This document shows, piece after piece, positions 11,171 to 45,664 of a stretch of 64,000 nucleotides of DNA. Source of the DNA: Candidatus Kapaibacterium sp. (lineage in GTDB: Bacteria > Bacteroidota > Ignavibacteria > Kapaibacteriales > WFXC01); the NCBI GenBank assembly GCA_015490805.1, contig WFXC01000016.1, positions 1 through 64,000 of the forward strand. The letters are read 5' to 3'. Every line of letters begins with the position of its first letter. Positions within the stretch are counted from its first letter, which is position 1. The notes beneath the pieces were generated by a model that was given only the letters and a program-made list of their open reading frames with translations, was not told the origin of the DNA and did no database searches. The position numbers were made by a program, and so were the translations under genes.

Positions 11171-11330
11171 GCTGACTAAAGTCGCAGTGCTTCCAATCTG
11201 CTGGGAGCGCATACTTCAGTGTGCATTCTTTGCCGGCTAAAGCCGGTGCTCCCAGAGAGACGCTCCCAGTGGTATGCCGACTAAAGCCGGCGCTTCCAGT
11301 TGGAGCGCACGCTTGAGCGTGCATTTCCCC
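11171..11330 (+). repeat. Intergenic three-stem repeat, locus 3a
   Basis: A tandem of partial and complete units. A second-hairpin fragment GCTGACTAAAGTCGCAG is followed by a full unit 11201-11255 (CTGGGAGCG...GGTGCTCCCAG) with hairpins ATACTTCAGTGT and GCCGGCTAAAGCCGGT, then another second hairpin and a closing CACGCTTGAGCGTG hairpin. It fills the gap between the operon end and the chemoreceptor. Confidence 0.75.
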
Positions 11331-11739: not shown

Positions 11740-14361
11740 CTACGATGGTAGTGCTTTATTGGTGGTGGTTTGCTCGGCCAATTGGAACACGCGCAGCGAT
11801 TGCTGCAGGTCATCGGCTAATTGAGAGAGGTTGCGGGCAGCCTCTGCTAGCTCTGCTATCCCTTTTGCGCTCTCTTCAATGACCTGCGACATTGCTGTTA
11901 TATTCCGCGACATTTCTTCACTGGTTGCTGACTCCTGCTCAACGGCTGCCACGATCTGTGATAGCATCTGCTCAACGGTCTCCGAAGATTTTACGATTTC
12001 CTCCAACGCCTGCTGCGCTCTGGTTGTTCGTCCCACCCCCTCATCCACGGTATTTTGAACTTCCTCCATAGCAGAAACGGTATCAGCAGTTGATTGCTGC
12101 AACTGCTGAATAATATCTGCGATTTCTTTTGCCGATTCGCCCGTGCGCTCCGCCAGCTTGCGAACTTCATCTGCCACAACTGCAAATCCGCGACCGGCAT
12201 CACCTGCTCGTGCTGCTTCAATCGCAGCGTTGAGTGCTAACAAATTTGTCTGATCGGCAATTTCGGTAATCACTGCTGTGATTGTCTGGATCCGCTCTGC
12301 TGCCTGCTGCAGCGTTCCCAACTGCTCCACTGCTTTTTGAACTTGTCCTGCAATCGCTTGCATCTGCCCTAACACTTCCTGCAGTACATCCTTCCCGCTT
12401 CCAGCTACTGCCGCTGCCTGCCGTGATGCCTCCCCAACTTGATGGACATTTCGTGAGGTATCTGCAATCGTATGGCTCATTTGTTCTACTGCTGCGGCGA
12501 TCTGTGCACTTTGTGCCGACTGTTCCTGTGCCGCCGTTGCCAGTTGCTCCGTCGTTGCTCCCATCTGCGCCGCGGCTGAAGCGACGTGCTCAGCGGTAGT
12601 TCGCAACTTACCAATCAACGCATTCCACGACTTCAACAAAGACTGAATATCCCCTTGTAATCGCTGAATTACCGCTGACTCCTTGCCGCTGACCTGAACT
12701 ACTGCACTAAGATTCCCCCTCGCCATTTCGTGCAGAACAACACCAATCAACTCTGCATCTTCCAGAAGCTGCTGGTTGAATTTCGATAGCTCCTGCTGCA
12801 TCAAATAGGCGCCGACGATTCCTCCAAGGATATCGGCAAAGGCTTCCAGAATATATCGGTCATCCTCTCCGAATAGTCGATCGCCGGAGGTTACAACCAG
12901 CGAACCGATCTGTTTCTGGTTGGCTTCCAGCGTCACTTCAATGGTATCCCCTCGACGGCTGCCCGATCCGACCGATTGCAATGCCAGAGAAGTTTCCTGA
13001 TGCTGCCCATCGCTCTGGAAGCGGAATTGGGGTTGTCCCTGGTCATCAAGCAGCACGAAGGTTGCTCCGGACCCATTGACGATATCGGTTGCCCCAGCCA
13101 CTATGGTGTTGCCAAGCTGTTCCAGCGATCGCCCGCTGCTGGCTTCTCCAGCGATACGATCCAGCCACCGCAATGTTTTCAGCCGCTTGGTCAGCCGCTC
13201 GCCGACTTCCACGATCGATCGTGCCAACTCTCCTACCTCATTGCGCAAATGCGCTACCACCTCCAGTTCCTCTTTGCGAACCTCGTCTTCCTGCAGAGAC
13301 CGGAAAGCTTCCACAAGGGCTGCAATATTGGTCACCACTGTCTTTCCGGTCATCAGACTGATCATAACCAGAATCAACACCAGCACAAGAGACACTCCCA
13401 AAGCGGAATACACAGTCGCCACACTCCAGGAATATTCTCCCTCAATGTCAGCGACAATATATGCTGTTGCTGTATCGCCCCACCGATAAAACTGGTCGAT
13501 CACCCGCGTAGCCTGCTGGAAAAACCGCTGGGGATCACCAGCAATAGTTGATGACTCTACAAAGGTACGCTCGATGTCCTGTAACAACTGTCTTGCCTGA
13601 GGAAGTAGTTGCTGCAAACTGCTTAGAAGATCGCTCACTCGCGTCTGATGGAACTGGCTCTTGACTACTTGTTCAATGCGCTGTTGCTGAAGCCGTGCAG
13701 CCTGAACTAACTGTTTCAATTGCTCCCGTTCATCAGGTCGAAGTGTATCGATGTCGCGGGCAAGATAGCCACTGCCCAGACCACGCAACTGCCCCAGTGC
13801 TTCCGTCAGTTGCGGAAGCCGGCGATACAACAGCAATATCAATGAACTCATCGCTGGATCAAACTTCGCCTGGTGCAGTAGAACATTCTCCAACTCCAGT
13901 GTTGCTTCAACCAAGTTTGAGTGGATCTCGAAAGATTCGAATGCTGAATGTTCCCGCCACTCAGCTCGTAACTGCTGCCACCGTGTCGCTAGCTCCTCCA
14001 CTAATGCTGCAACTTCTGCAACTTCCGCCAGTACTGGTGTTTCGCCAACGTGTTGCCGCACGCGCTGCAACAGCGAATCGCAGCTACGCTCCACGTTGGT
14101 AATGCGCGTCTCCACCGCGGTATTTCCATTCAGATACTGGCTGGCCAATCCGCGGTGCAACTGCAACGCCCGCTGCAGATCTGCCAGCGGCACCAGAGTC
14201 CGAATCACCGACAGGTTATCCTTCGGCACCTGCAATGCTATGGAGCTGCTGAATACCACTGCGCCAAGGAGCACCACTGTAACCACAATAATCCCTGGCG
14301 TTAGCAAACGACGAAGTACCGTTCGCAGAGGTAATGCTGCAAGTCGTTGCGATACTCTCAT
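11740..14361 (-). CDS. Methyl-accepting chemotaxis protein
   Basis: The product is 873 aa from the ATG at 14361, which follows GGAGTGGAAGA; a GTG at 14376 would add five residues. TM1 is at about 20-45. The periplasmic helical region (about 50-310) carries two LxRGLxSxYL motifs ([19 protein letters not shown]) like nitrate/nitrite-sensing NIT domains. TM2 is near 320-340, then HAMP (about 340-395), a GAF-like domain (about 405-545), and a long MCP signalling domain with the hairpin-tip sequence [20 protein letters not shown]. It senses a periplasmic ligand and signals to CheA/CheW. No C-terminal CheR-binding pentapeptide is visible. Its ATG overlaps, as ATGA, the end of a G-tract leader frame (see 14358-14524). 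Confidence 0.93.
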
Positions 14362-14524
14362 TCTTCCACTCCCCACCGTTTATACAACTCTTCCACAGGT
14401 ATTCCCTCATCTCGAGCTTGGAGCATCCGGAAAATCCTGAAGAGCTGATTGGATGAGCCAACAACGGTGTGTCGTACAGGGAGCTTTATCGCCCCCCCCC
14501 CCGCAAAAATTTTCTTATTTTCAC
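14358..14524 (-). pseudogene. Short leader ORF overlapping the chemoreceptor start, frame broken at an 11-G tract
   Basis: A GTG at 14524 follows AAGGAGG (14533-14539) at ideal spacing and reads VKIRKFLRGGG into a run of 11 G. As sequenced, the frame then stops at TAA (14486-14488). If the run had 9 or 12 G, reading would continue as AIKLPVRHTVVGSSNQLF, then [26 protein letters not shown]. The stop TGA (14358-14360) would overlap the receptor ATG as ATGA, giving 55 codons and translational coupling. The last 30 residues resemble the first helices of a winged-helix DNA-binding domain, but this is too short to assign. The frame is also open upstream to an ATG at 14686, giving an alternative 109-aa form. 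It could be a phase-variable leader, a gene remnant or an assembly artefact. Confidence 0.45.
14492..14502. repeat. Homopolymer tract, 11 G on the minus strand
   Basis: Eleven consecutive C on the given strand. It and 45158-45168 are the only homopolymers this long that I found; other runs in genes are seven or fewer. Its length decides whether the chemoreceptor leader frame is open. Confidence 0.9.
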
Positions 14525-39619: not shown

Positions 39620-39711
39620 ACCGGGAATGCACGCCCTTAGGCGTGCATCTACTGGGAGCACACGCTTCCGTGTACATCGCTGTTCCTTTGCCGACTAAAG
39701 TCGGCGCTCCT
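39620..39711 (+). repeat. Intergenic three-stem repeat, locus 6
   Basis: A half unit CGGGAATGCACGCCCTTAGG with hairpin GCACGCCCTTAGGCGTGC, then a near-full unit 39651-39711 starting CTGGGAGCAC with hairpin CACGCTTCCGTGT and hairpin GCCGACTAAAGTCGGC, closing GCGCTCC. The spacing between hairpins is longer than in other copies. Confidence 0.7.
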
Positions 39712-39909
39712 GCAAAAACGGAAATTCCGCTGCGCTGTAAAGGAAGGAATTCCCACAAAGCAGAACTGCGTCACAGCACCTGAAGATTTCAGCCTGGCAA
39801 CCCCGCAGGGCAGTATCAGACACAGCAGGTTTGCATCACGATACCAAAAGGGCAACTCTATGCTCGAACGGGACAAATCAGAACACTGATGATGCCAGCA
39901 TACATCCCA

Positions 39910-40671
39910 CTACCGAATCGAATACCGCCGCAAGCGCCACATCACCGGATCCCTCGGCTCGCACGGCTCATACTCGGTCATAAACTCCCACGACCAGTCA
40001 TCTGCCACCTGAAACTGCACGATCCCGATCCCCCGAACAACCCAGATCCACAACCACTGCCCCTCGCATCCCGGATACGCTCTTTCTCCTGAGCCATATG
40101 ATGAGAACTGATCTCGCACACTACAACGATATTGCAAGGCACCAGCAGAAGTATCCAGAAAAGTTACTATCTGACGTCCTTCATACCGGGCTCCATACTC
40201 TATCCAGTCCGCAACGAGCTTCATTCCAACCAACTCTACTGTATCTGCGCCCGAGAACTGATGACGATAACTCCAACTCGGCTTTCCAAAATCTGCCAAT
40301 GGTAACCACTGGGGGGATATTCCCCAAAATCTCAAAATCCACCAGTTTCTATACTCCCACAACTGCCCATTCCGTTCCTCCCAGAACACCGTATCCCGAA
40401 ACTCCCCACCTTCCGACTGCCACCGCCACACCACCATCGCCGCCGCTCGACCATCAACCCTCCGCCTTCCTACTACCTCGATCCGCACCCACTTCGGAGA
40501 TTCCAGGGTATCAAGGCTCCCCGCTACCCATTCGTATTCCCACCAATTCCCCGAATCCAATGGCATCACCCTCCGCGCCTCCCGCGGTCCAGTCACATCC
40601 TCACATCCCCCGATCACCCCTCCACCAATGATCCCAACTGCCACGATCACCACCATCCACCTTCGATGCAT
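39910..40671 (-). CDS. Lipoprotein of unknown function
   Basis: The 253-aa product has a lipoprotein signal: a hydrophobic stretch ending VIGGGVIGGC with the lipid-accepting Cys at 23, then EDVTGP. The mature part is Trp-rich (NWWEYEWV, WEYRNWWILRFWG) with predicted beta strands. I do not recognise a family. It is the last gene of the subtilase-lipoprotein cluster, 24 bases after the preceding lipoprotein's stop, so probably co-transcribed. Confidence 0.78.
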   Translation of the reverse strand: MHRRWMVVIVAVGIIGGGVIGGCEDVTGPREARRVMPLDSGNWWEYEWVAGSLDTLESPKWVRIEVVGRRRVDGRAAAMVVWRWQSEGGEFRDTVFWEERNGQLWEYRNWWILRFWGISPQWLPLADFGKPSWSYRHQFSGADTVELVGMKLVADWIEYGARYEGRQIVTFLDTSAGALQYRCSVRDQFSSYGSGERAYPGCEGQWLWIWVVRGIGIVQFQVADDWSWEFMTEYEPCEPRDPVMWRLRRYSIR

Positions 40672-40695
40672 CTCCTCACTCCTCTTTGTGAAACG

Positions 40696-41859
40696 CTACT
40701 TAAATGGCAACGGGGTCATTGTCAACTGCCGGATGATCTGTCCCTGCAAATCCACTTCGTACAGATACCCATACGCAAACGGCAACGTATCTCTCGGCGG
40801 CACCATCGTCACCACCAGCCGATCATTGCTCAGAAAATCCCCGCCCGGCAAAAACCGATACCCGCACGCCGTCTGCCACAAATCCACCACCCGATCTGGC
40901 TTTGCCACCACCGGACGTTCCCGAAGCAGCCGATCCACATCATCCCAGATCCAGATCTGCGGAAATAACCTCGGCGGCACCGGCATCACCACCAGTGCCA
41001 ACCGCTTCCCATCCGGAGACCACCGTGCCCGCCTTACGATGATCGGATACCTTGCCCGACGTTCAAACCACAACCGGTACCCGTTCACGTAGTACGCATA
41101 TCCCCCATACCGCCCGGAAAGTTCCACTGCCAGAAACACCTTCTCCCCATCCGGCGACACTTCCTGCCACCACCGCCGATCCCATTGCCCCTCTCCCATC
41201 ACCTGCCGCCTCCATCGTTCCACCGGATCATTTTCAAACGGCAAAAACTCATCGCCCTCAAGATAATACATCCCTTTCTCCCCCGCATCCAGAAAATTCT
41301 TTCCCGGCTCAGATTGCTCCATCCATCGGTAGAACCGCAGCGTTTCATCCACCGAAAATGCCGTGCTGTATCCCGATGGTGCTATCCGATAGGCTTTCCC
41401 CTGCTGCCGGTCCACCAGAAAATAATTCCGCCCGAATGCCACCCATCTCCCTGTATCCACCATCGTCTGTGCCTCTATCAAGACATACCGATCGGAATAC
41501 GGTGCCCAGTGCATTGACAACACATCCCTGATGCCGAACCCCAGTGCTCGAATGGCTGCATCCATTCGTCCATCGTCCCACTGCAAACTCGCCGGGTCCA
41601 GACTCCGGACCCCAAAATAAAATTGCTGCCGGCGTACAATAAACCCTATGTGTCGCTCCTTCGGCGACACCCGCAGCACCTGATGATATCCCTCCTCCGG
41701 AAATTGCGCATTTTTATCCCCCAGACTGTGCGGGAAAAAGCACGGTGTCGGCGCAACCACCTCCCCGCACCCGCCACTTCCGAGCATCAGTCCAATGAGC
41801 CCCACAATCACAAACCACCATCGCTCTACTCCGCCTTGCCCCCTCTTCCCAACTCTCAT
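40696..41859 (-). CDS. TolB/WD40-like propeller lipoprotein
   Basis: The 387-aa product has an N terminus (RWWFVIVGLIGLMLGSGGC) that is a lipoprotein signal with Cys at about 31. The mature region shows PD40/TolB-like strand motifs (VSPDGEKVFLAVE, ARWSPDGKRLALVVMP) and a final YLYEVDLQGQIIRQLTMTP. The ending matches that of the next upstream lipoprotein (YIYEVSVEGRILRQLTFEL), so the two are paralogues. It is likely an envelope-anchored propeller with a binding role. It begins seven bases after its paralogue ends. Confidence 0.82.
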   Translation of the reverse strand: MRVGKRGQGGVERWWFVIVGLIGLMLGSGGCGEVVAPTPCFFPHSLGDKNAQFPEEGYHQVLRVSPKERHIGFIVRRQQFYFGVRSLDPASLQWDDGRMDAAIRALGFGIRDVLSMHWAPYSDRYVLIEAQTMVDTGRWVAFGRNYFLVDRQQGKAYRIAPSGYSTAFSVDETLRFYRWMEQSEPGKNFLDAGEKGMYYLEGDEFLPFENDPVERWRRQVMGEGQWDRRWWQEVSPDGEKVFLAVELSGRYGGYAYYVNGYRLWFERRARYPIIVRRARWSPDGKRLALVVMPVPPRLFPQIWIWDDVDRLLRERPVVAKPDRVVDLWQTACGYRFLPGGDFLSNDRLVVTMVPPRDTLPFAYGYLYEVDLQGQIIRQLTMTPLPFK

Positions 41860-41866
41860 CGCTCCC

Positions 41867-42895
41867 TCACAGCTCGAATGTTAACTGCCGCAAAATCCGT
41901 CCTTCGACCGAAACCTCATAGATGTAACAAGTAAAAAACCCCGGCGGAAACAGGGAGACCGCAAAGGTCGTATCACTGGTAAACCGCGGCACTGGATCCA
42001 TTGAATACATACACCACTGTTCTGCCGGATCAATCACATAATCTGGCTCCACTTTAGTTGAGGGATTTGCTAACACCCGATTGACATCCTTGATAATGAT
42101 GATCTTGCGTTCTCGATTAAGACCCGGTCCCCACATCAGCAAACTCCGCCCATTGGGTGCCCAGCTTGCCCTACCAGTTCCCCTCGGTAATCGTATCTCC
42201 ACTCCATCCAGCAAAAATCGCCGCTGACCGTTCTCATCCTCTACGACACCAAACCAGTGCTGATCGCCGGGACTCCACACCCGTCGCTGCGGCTTGCCTC
42301 GATACTTCTCCGGAAGCGGCAAAATCGTATCTTTCTGCAACCAGTACATCCGCTCTCCTGACAACACAAAATAATCCGCTCCGGGTCTGGAGGTCGCCAT
42401 CCAGTGCAGAAAGACACGATCTCCGGGACTTTCCGGGATCACCTTCTCCACTCGAACCGCCATACCACCCGAAAAAGCAATCACAAATGCATAGTCACGG
42501 AACCTTCCCTCTTGATCCATCGACTTGACCAATACCATCAGACGACGATGATCATACGGACACCATATTACCCCCTCTATTCCAGCGGAAGACTCTCCTT
42601 GCGGCAAATACGGTCGAGCTCCAAACTCGGAAACTTCGTAAGTAACCACGTTCATAATGCGCAATGGACTATCCTCCCGGACACTCCAGTAAGCTACCAT
42701 TACTCCATCCGGCGATGCTCCTATAACAATATGCCCCGATGGCGGTCGGATAATTCGGATTTCATCGTATCCCCATTCACACGGCGGTGGGGACGGCTGC
42801 ACGGGAACATCCTGACATCCGCCCCACCCACCACTCAGCAGCAAAAGCAGCATCCAGACAATGCTACCAGACAAATACCGGCTGTGTGACCACAT
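41867..42895 (-). CDS. TolB/WD40-like propeller lipoprotein, paralogue
   Basis: The product is 342 aa from the ATG at 42895 (MWSHSRYLSGSIVWMLLLLL, then SGGWGGC, lipid Cys near 27). A later ATG at 42853 would leave too short a signal, and the longest frame reaches back to 43021. The chosen start overlaps the subtilase 3' end by 32 bases. Strand motifs include IGASPDGVMVAYWS, VWSPGDQHWFGVV and ASWAPNGRSLLMWG. It is paralogous to the following gene. Coupling to the subtilase means its translation may also depend on the G-tract state upstream. Confidence 0.8.
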   Translation of the reverse strand: MWSHSRYLSGSIVWMLLLLLSGGWGGCQDVPVQPSPPPCEWGYDEIRIIRPPSGHIVIGASPDGVMVAYWSVREDSPLRIMNVVTYEVSEFGARPYLPQGESSAGIEGVIWCPYDHRRLMVLVKSMDQEGRFRDYAFVIAFSGGMAVRVEKVIPESPGDRVFLHWMATSRPGADYFVLSGERMYWLQKDTILPLPEKYRGKPQRRVWSPGDQHWFGVVEDENGQRRFLLDGVEIRLPRGTGRASWAPNGRSLLMWGPGLNRERKIIIIKDVNRVLANPSTKVEPDYVIDPAEQWCMYSMDPVPRFTSDTTFAVSLFPPGFFTCYIYEVSVEGRILRQLTFEL

Positions 42896-45210
42896 CCGCT
42901 CCGATCCGCAGTTGGACAAAATAAACCCCACGGGAAAGACGGGGAATCGGAAACTCCTGCGGTTCTCCTCCCCAGTGCAACATATCAGATCCAGCATACA
43001 ACATCTTGCCCTGCGCATCAAAAATCCGTACCGTCATTCTCTTACTCCGCAGAACCGATGGAGTTACCCACACTATGAGCTTCTGATCCTGCACCACACA
43101 CCGGAATGTCCACCGACGCCCCTCAGCCATGTGCCGGGTCTGCCCATCCCGGTCTTCTACATCGGTTACCTTCTCTCTTCCAAAGACTGAAATATGAAAT
43201 CCAAGTTTCTTTGGATAGATCGAGGGCTGTTGTTGCTTACCCATTGGCTTTAGCTTATATTGCAAATTAGCAACTCGAACCTGGAAAGAATGGCTGTGAT
43301 AAATTCCATCTACCCTCCCATTGCCTCCTCGCCCAGAGATTATATACGTAGTCCCAACTTGAGAACAGGGATTCTTTCTTGAAGCAAGTGCCCATCCACT
43401 GGGTGCTCCTTCACCGCTCCGTCCCCACACGAACAGGGGATTTGCACTATCCACTACCCACCGATGCGGAGGCAAATGAATCGTACCATAGACCCATCGG
43501 CGCTGTGCCTCATACAACCCGTTTTCCAGCGGCTTTGCTCGACCGCCCGCATTAAATACTGGCAACAAAAAAGTCGGACTCCATTCACCAACGGAGTCGA
43601 TCGCCACTGAATCAACAGAAAAATGGCTTACCCTATATCCTCGCTGTAGCATATCAAACAACGTATCTGCCCGGATATGTCCCCATCCCGTCGTATCGTC
43701 ATAAAAGCGAGACATCCGATCCTCACAAGCAGCCTTGATCATCCCTTCGTAATCCTCCACCACCAGATCCCACTGGTGCTCCCGGGCTTCAGAACGCAAC
43801 AGTGCAATCAGACCACTTACGTGGGGCGCTGCCGCAGAGGTTCCTGCAAAATACCCAAATCCTCCTCCATACTGAGTAGTGTATACGACAGCATCTGGAC
43901 CTGAGTAATCTCCTCCCGGAGCCAGGAAATCCATTCCCCCTCCATACGAAGAATACCAAATTAAATTTCTGGAACTATCAGATCCTCCTACGCTGGACAC
44001 CCACCATTCGTCGTAGCACGCGGGAAAAACTATGAGAGAATCGCCAGAATTCCCTCTTGAAGCAACGAAACTGACTCCGTTTTCAAATGCATACAGTATC
44101 GCTTCCCGCAGAACTTGGCTGTAAGTCGCAGTTCCCCAACTGGCATTAATGATATGTACCCCATATCCGTGTTTCGGACTACGAGTACTAGCTTCTTCAA
44201 TAGCAGCAACTACATAGTTCAACAACAAACGGTCCGAGTTCAATGAATCAGCAACGCGAAAACCATATAGTGCACACCCTATTCCCTCATCACTATAGTT
44301 GTTGTCCGGTCCCCATCCACCAGCAATCCCGGCAACTCCCTGCTCCACACATCCCCTGTTGGTCAACGCTCCAACAATCCCAGCTACGGGAGTTCCGTGA
44401 TAAGACATTATGCTGAAATCTGGTGTGTTTTCAGTCCAATTCCAGCCACCGGCAACCTTGTATCCCCATCCCTTTCCACCACCCAAATCGCAATGCTGGT
44501 ACCATATTCCATTATCGATGATTCCGACTTTGATCGCGTAATCTCCTACCTCAAAGTCCCACGCCCGTGTTACTCCCGTCATCTTCCGATGCAGGCTGAT
44601 CTGCAAGGGGAAATTCGGATCTCGAGAAGGTGTCCGGTCCAAAAGCTCCAGATAGTAATTAGGCTCCACTATCTGTACCGCATCCCAATGATTGATCAAG
44701 ATTTGTATTGCCGCATTAACAACATCAATGGTATCGCTTCGGAATTCCAACATCATCCACAAATAACTAGTACATCGGATCGTATCGCCATAGCGCGTGA
44801 TGGAAATCGTATCAGAACATGGATTGGCAACTGACACTCGCCGCAAGGAATCAACCCCCAGATTTTCAAGCGTCACTCGAAGTGCTGAATCCCGGATGAT
44901 GGAGGCAACGGAAAACTGCTGCGATAACAAATGCTGGCGCAGCGACGGCGGCAACATCAAAACCCCTTCACCCGGCGCTCCCTCCGTGATCGGAGCTGGA
45001 TACTCATAGCACAGTGAGTCAAGGTACAAAGCGTGGGGATAAAACCGCACGATGAGTTCTCCCGGTGCGTAAGCCGTATCCGGTGGCGGAAAATTGTAAT
45101 CGATGGTATCTCCACGGGTATCAAGGAAAACGGGTAACTGGAGTTGAGCAACTATATCCCCCCCCCCCAAACAGGAAGAGAAAGAACAAAAACAGGCGCA
45201 GTTTCTTCAT
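42864..45210 (-). CDS. T9SS-sorted subtilisin-family protease, frame interrupted at an 11-G tract
   Basis: The ATG at 45210 encodes MKKLRLFLFFLFLF, then a run of 11 G. As sequenced this shifts out of frame and stops within about 13 codons. With 10 or 13 G it reads on as GGGDIVAQLQLPVF, a perfect signal peptide, into the 768-codon frame, giving 781 aa. The catalytic triad is intact (corrected numbering): Asp ~232 in GIIDNG, His ~271 in SYHGTPVAG, Ser ~458 in GTSAAAPHVSG, with the oxyanion Asn in INASWG. The C-terminal about 80 residues (VRIFDAQGKMLYAG, FPIPRLSRGVYFVQLRIG) are a T9SS type A sorting domain. A TTG at 45170 could start a form lacking the signal. Phase variation or a homopolymer assembly error are the two explanations. 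Confidence 0.88.
45158..45168. repeat. Homopolymer tract, 11 G on the minus strand, in protease signal peptide
   Basis: Eleven C on the given strand, at codons 15-18 of the protease. Lengths of 10 or 13 would be in frame; 11 is not. Confidence 0.92.
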
Positions 45211-45345
45211 CGCTCTCACCTTTTTTGTTCCACAAACCGCTGATGAGAACAGTGCAAATATACAAAAAGCTTTGCAAAAAGTCAAGAGCCGTAGAAAATG
45301 CGAAATAAAAAGTGGCGTTTTATATACTGCCGCACATTGCCAGCA

Positions 45346-45664
45346 CGCATTTCCTTTGCCAACTAAAGTCGGCGCTCCCAGCCATTGCCGGCTGAAGCCG
45401 GCGCTCCCACCATCGGCGCTTTTAGTTTACTGGGAGTGCACGCTTCCGTGTGCATCTACTGGGAGCGCATCCTTTAGGGTGTATTTTTTGCCGACTGAAG
45501 TCGGCGCTCCCAGTAGGGTCTCTCGATTCACTGAAAAACGCACGCTCTCAGGCATGTATCTACTGGGAACACACGCTTCAGGATGCATTCTCTGCCGACG
45601 AAAGTCGGCGCTCCCAGCAATTGCCGGCTGGAGCCGGCACTCTCACCGCCGGCACTCCCAGCAA
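45346..45664 (+). repeat. Intergenic three-stem repeat, locus 7 (largest cluster)
   Basis: At least three full units with extra second hairpins: GCCAACTAAAGTCGGCGCTCCCAG, GCCGGCTGAAGCCGGCGCTCCCA, then units starting at 45430, 45458 and 45563 (CTGGGAGTG, CTGGGAGCG, CTGGGAACA) each ending in GTCGGCGCTCCCAG or similar. The cluster fills the space between the protease and trpB2 genes, both on the minus strand, and still reads on the + strand. Confidence 0.75.

Follow-up and report, generated by a model that had tools for sequence, protein, structure and literature searches.

A poly-G tract as a candidate phase-variation switch in the signal peptide of a probable T9SS subtilase from 'Candidatus Kapaibacterium'

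Most known cases of SSR-mediated phase variation come from host-adapted pathogens, and the phase variation known in Bacteroidota is mainly DNA inversion. The protease NalP, the closest counterpart of the locus described here, is subtilisin-like. NalP (AspA) is a phase-variable autotransporter protease of Neisseria meningitidis with a coding poly-C tract that is ON at 7, 10 or 13 C; tract lengths of 6-15 C occur among isolates, and recombination between the repeats that flank the gene leads to its loss (PMC3723659). The Bacteroides examples shown in a review of SSRs and phase variation are inversion-mediated (PMC11868660). Our limited literature search turned up neither a T9SS cargo nor a Kapabacteria case of SSR phase variation, nor a paper joining phase-variable homopolymers with metagenome-assembled genomes, and a paper on phase variation and type IX secretion (PMC9862357) does not describe phase-variable T9SS cargo.

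We analysed a 64-kb stretch of DNA (hereafter the window) from a 'Ca. Kapaibacterium' MAG, the source genome (G000), together with its two congeneric MAGs (G001 and G002). The window contains a subtilase gene with a repeat, a G tract, in its 5' coding part, the length of which sets the reading frame of the gene. Like NalP, the product would be a surface-exported protease with a coding homopolymer that is ON at 7, 10 or 13 residues, and its gene lies in a cassette likewise flanked by repeats. Unlike NalP, a pathogen autotransporter with poly-C, it has poly-G in the signal peptide, is probably a T9SS substrate and comes from uncultured Bacteroidota, and its switching is predicted from the sequence. 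Searches with Pfam and NCBIfam profiles found no autotransporter domain in the protease, which is analogous to NalP in working and is not a member of the NalP family. The locus also resembles the SSR contingency loci of Haemophilus, Campylobacter and Helicobacter in its long early-coding G/C homopolymer, in its surface or secreted product and in the occurrence of in- and out-of-frame lengths (PMC11868660). In contrast to those organisms, the genus has no known host and few tracts: pattern searches for G/C runs of at least 9 returned only seven in the 2.67 Mb of the source genome, one in G001 and two distinct ones in G002. With T9SS-exported subtilases of Bacteroidota it shares a signal peptide ending in AQ, a propeptide region, an S8 domain and a Por_Secre_tail-like C-terminus, and it differs from them in the 5' homopolymer switch. 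The locus would be of a known kind, an SSR translational switch, in a phylum and with a secretion system that are new for it.

The features of the locus are listed in Table 1. We rebuilt the reading frame in silico with 7 to 14 G in the tract. With 7, 10 or 13 G, start codon, signal peptide and protease form a single protein of 780-782 aa whose signal peptide reads MKKLRLFLFFLFLFGG(G/GG)DIVAQ. At every other length modelled, translation ends after 18-30 codons; 12 G give a product of 19 aa, and the sequenced 11 G give one of 29 aa, which ends at a TGA stop about 30 nt past the tract. These data bear out the preliminary description, which had placed the start ATG and the signal in one frame and the protease in another with exactly 11 G between them, had read the sequenced copy as being in the OFF phase and had expected 10 or 13 G to restore the joint frame, as 7 G also does. 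The interval that it had delimited, 45150-45215, correctly spans the start codon and the tract. A TTG at 45170 was considered as the true start and rejected, since neither this start nor the upstream frame (RNCACFCSFSSCLGGGDIVAQ) provides a hydrophobic signal. Two G11 runs occur in the window (0.06 expected from shuffled sequence), the second at 14492-14502.

Table 1 Features of the candidate switch locus, in window coordinates
Feature	Position	Strand	Remarks
Interspersed repeat GGGAGCGCCGGCTTYAGYYGGCAA, five copies	45356..45644	-	5' edge of conserved cassette
Promoter-like element TTGACT...TATATTTG	45255..45285	-	52 nt before ATG; conserved in three species
ATG and first 14 signal-peptide codons MKKLRLFLFFLFLF	45169..45210	-	ATG = 45210-45208
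G11 homopolymer, candidate switch	45158..45168	-	7/10/13 G = ON (in frame); 8/9/11/12/14 = OFF
ON-frame continuation (GGG)DIVAQ, predicted signal-peptide end, then LQLPVF...	45130..45157	-	
Subtilase (S8), propeptide region, triad D218/H257/S444, T9SS type A-like C-terminal tail	42864..45167	-	
Lipoprotein-like gene 1	41867..42895	-	likely ATG 42895; 79/75% identical in G001/G002
Lipoprotein-like gene 2	40696..41859	-	distant relative of gene 1
Lipoprotein-like gene 3	39910..40671	-	
Interspersed repeat GGGAGCGCCGGCTTYAGYYGGCAA, one copy	39688..39711	-	3' edge of conserved cassette

The protease body comprises 767 codons, and the residue numbers of the triad refer to the 767-aa translation of its frame. 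Its S8 domain is a firm match to PF00082 (111 bits, 6e-32), and D218, H257 and S444 as well as the oxyanion-hole Asn are invariant in the nine homologues compared, in line with the intact catalytic triad initially described. The Sec signal peptide is in frame with the protease only at ON tract lengths, and the AQ at its predicted end aligns with the signal-peptide ends of homologues. The C-terminal sorting domain (TIGR04183/PF18962) scores 18.2 bits in the source copy against a cut-off of 23, whereas the TIGR04183 tail reaches 23.0 and 23.1 bits in the G001 and G002 orthologues. In most of the distant homologues, five proteins, it lies at 30-44 bits. In addition, the T9SS translocon gene SprA is present in the source genome (TIGR04189, 906 bits, G000:C43). 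The protease is thus probably exported by T9SS: of the initial designation as a T9SS subtilase, the second word stands firmly, and the first is probable, given a tail that is sub-threshold in the source copy but above the cut-off in the orthologues.

Both congeners carry the orthologous protease, with 85 and 84% amino acid identity, and the alignment of the three species is unambiguous from the promoter through start codon and signal peptide to the tract. The tract has 11 G in G001 and 9 G in G002, both out of frame; these lengths are majority calls of the assemblies, from contigs of low k-mer coverage (3.0 in G001 and 2.1 in G002), and the differences among them are differences between species. 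It is the sole G/C run of at least 9 in the 2.7 Mb of G001 and one of the two in G002. The signal-peptide start MKKLRLFLFFLFLF differs by one amino acid (K2R) among the three species, and the 5' region and promoter are 93-98% identical, compared with 85% for the whole gene. This alignment indicates a tract that is conserved as such but drifts in length. We sought an ON allele within the genus in the three genomes, one per species, and found none (lengths 11, 11 and 9). If one-third of alleles were in frame, three OFF out of three would have a chance of 8/27, and the result is therefore no argument against switching.

Across the three Kapaibacterium species, dN/dS 3' of the tract is 0.18-0.22 (NG86) or 0.22-0.25 (YN00), and the protease frame contains no stop codon in any of them; neutral evolution simulated at 0.1-0.2 changes per site produced about 10-18 stops per lineage. 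These values indicate that the protease evolves under purifying selection and is not a pseudogene, which argues that the gene has to be expressed, be it in a fraction of the cells or at some level. Separately, G001 and G002 encode a paralogue (G001:C104:12280-13044, L064; G002:C11:6973-7734, L065) that shares the N-terminal 170 and C-terminal 97 residues, and has a tract-free signal peptide in frame; relatives of lipoproteins 2 and 3 come after it. We rejected this paralogue as a catalytically intact substitute, because it matches only residues 6-174 and 670-767 and lacks the catalytic domain.

In the order and in the class, the signal peptides of most homologues lack a tract. A fixed, tract-free signal peptide in relatives, which the preliminary description had counted against a switch, is thus the case among more distant relatives and is not the case within the genus. 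Three of the 19 homologues outside the genus nevertheless carry 5' tracts of their own, as against 0.006 expected in 300-bp 5' windows. In family f3, another family of the order, G013:C15 has C14 at a conserved PPPD motif a few codons past the signal peptide, where 10, 13 and 16 would be ON, and its signal MFKLTIFLISLLCAFSTDLLCQ lies in a frame other than that of the protease (OFF), while G115:C10 has C10 at the PPPD motif, in frame; the two tracts may share ancestry. In G082:C148, a more distant T9SS-type subtilase from within the order, G12 directly follows MLNKSFFRFAALLSLLFLCFGTGVAQNLR and is out of frame. Both ON (C10) and OFF (C14) states were seen only among distant homologues, all genus orthologues being OFF. 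Two further repeats were left out of this count of coding-frame switches: a G13 run about 330 nt ahead of the ATG in G063, and (TG)13 about 50 nt upstream of the homologue's ATG in G066:C91 (L138), the latter possibly a promoter- or leader-type SSR switch.

From these observations, we propose that the G tract is, quite likely, a reversible translational ON/OFF contingency (phase-variation) locus of the probable T9SS subtilase, operated by slipped-strand mispairing. Transcription would start from the promoter about 50 nt upstream, in which TATATTTG matches the Bacteroidota -7 motif, TAnnTTTG, and translation would start at the ATG at 45210. Replication slippage on the G run would gain or lose single G. 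At 7, 10 or 13 G, signal peptide and subtilase would share one frame, and the product would be exported by Sec and then probably by T9SS, whereas other lengths, including the sequenced 11, would stop translation early and yield no protease. The additional codons would be glycines at the end of the hydrophobic core, a place where a three-base change should be harmless. The slippage rate and reversibility of the locus, as well as its expression, export and polarity, are inferred.

For a gene that is OFF in each deposited genome and yet kept by selection, only phase variation and slippage readily offer themselves as explanations. In the latter, programmed transcriptional slippage or ribosomal frameshifting would bring a fixed share of transcripts or ribosomes into the frame of the protease and so sustain low constitutive expression with the DNA unchanged. 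This would accommodate three of three congeners being out of frame with a protease under purifying selection; however, 11 and 9 G would require opposite shifts (+1 and -1), programmed slippage and frameshift sites are normally fixed in length, and the tracts of the homologues vary (C14 OFF, C10 in frame). The variety of the tracts in base, position, length and phase speaks for switching at the DNA level rather than for a programmed frameshift site, which would be constant; programmed slippage or frameshifting is, in our view, unlikely. An assembly or sequencing error, with a real length of 10 everywhere and the gene simply ON, has a smaller chance still. Long G runs are error-prone, the relatives are low-coverage MAGs, and contig G000:C6, and probably also G001:C192, ends at a G tract. 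On the other hand, an error would have had to occur in each of three independent assemblies, and in two different ways (11, 11 and 9), short-read homopolymer errors at such a length are too infrequent to be the rule, and even a conserved G10 in a signal peptide would remain slippage-prone. A decaying pseudogene with an accidental frameshift would explain the frame offset between start and protease body in 3/3 genomes, but is very improbable in view of the dN/dS values, the invariant triad and 767 codons free of stops and other frameshifts in three species. That the tract merely encodes Gly-Gly-Gly, with no switching role, is hardly credible: GGG(D) does suit a signal-peptide end, but GGG makes up a minority of the glycine codons of the gene (17/80), a stretch of three GGG and one further G persists in three species, the tract varies in length by amounts not divisible by three, and glycines are absent from that place in homologues outside the genus. 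The contingency-locus reading of the preliminary description is supported by the retention of the tract at 11, 11 and 9 G, by purifying selection and by the homologues' own 5' tracts, and the persistence of the run at differing lengths in sister species with an intact enzyme argues for a real switch rather than a mistake.

The three lipoprotein genes reported to follow the protease, the first overlapping it, were recovered as described. Gene 1 overlaps the 3' end of the protease gene by 32 nt, and the next gaps are 7 and 24 nt; all three genes are kept in G001, and the G002 contig stops inside the second. It is plausible that the switch also affects the lipoproteins by polarity or translational coupling, early termination perhaps lowering expression of the three downstream genes. 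The conserved block corresponds to window positions 39650-45381. Its 5' neighbours share no homology among the three genomes; its 3' neighbours differ between the source genome and G001, the only pair compared there. With differing neighbours and copies of GGGAGCGCCGGCTTYAGYYGGCAA at both edges, the protease and three-lipoprotein block appears to be a relocating cassette, moved perhaps by recombination between the repeats. This GC-rich repeat occurs in 14 copies in the 64 kb (0 expected), for example at 11230-11297, and often as intergenic tandem pairs.

A conserved homopolymer switch in the T9SS protease of an environmental lineage would point to selection, outside hosts, for bet-hedging in secreted proteolysis. 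Annotation pipelines call such split genes pseudogenes or place the start without a signal peptide. We see an even case for and against the idea that free-living, uncultured Kapabacteria run a small 'phasome', made up of the poly-G subtilase/lipoprotein cassette, independently arisen subtilase tracts in other families of the order and G-tract switches in short leaders translationally coupled to chemoreceptor (MCP) genes. If so, cells of one population would vary stochastically in surface proteolysis and taxis.

The leader tracts are G tracts that lie about 120-150 nt upstream of paralogous MCP genes, within a short leader ORF. They were observed at 14492-14502 in the window (minus strand, MCP 11740-14376), at G000:C27:50939-50948, at G002:C136:19410-19423 and at the start of G001:C192. 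The TGA of the leader ORF overlaps the ATG of the MCP gene (ATGA), and the leader C-terminus RNTLSPPAKRRTPAFAPLWGATIEGWIKRGKER is conserved in three species. With the 11 G of the window copy, a possible GTG start and the leader lie in different frames, which 9, 12 or 15 G would join; with the 14 G of the G002 copy, the possible GTG start is in frame. Elsewhere in the source genome, an 11-long G/C tract lies near the 3' end of a sigma-factor-like ORF (G000:C44:39287-39297; L029 3288-3298) and a 10-long one near the 3' end of a response regulator-histidine kinase ORF (G000:C45:27493-27502; L030 2994-3003), where C-terminal switching is possible. Finally, contig G000:C6 starts with 19 C (positions 1-19) beside a TPR gene resembling one near the G002:C136 chemoreceptor, and the assembly probably broke there within a long G tract.
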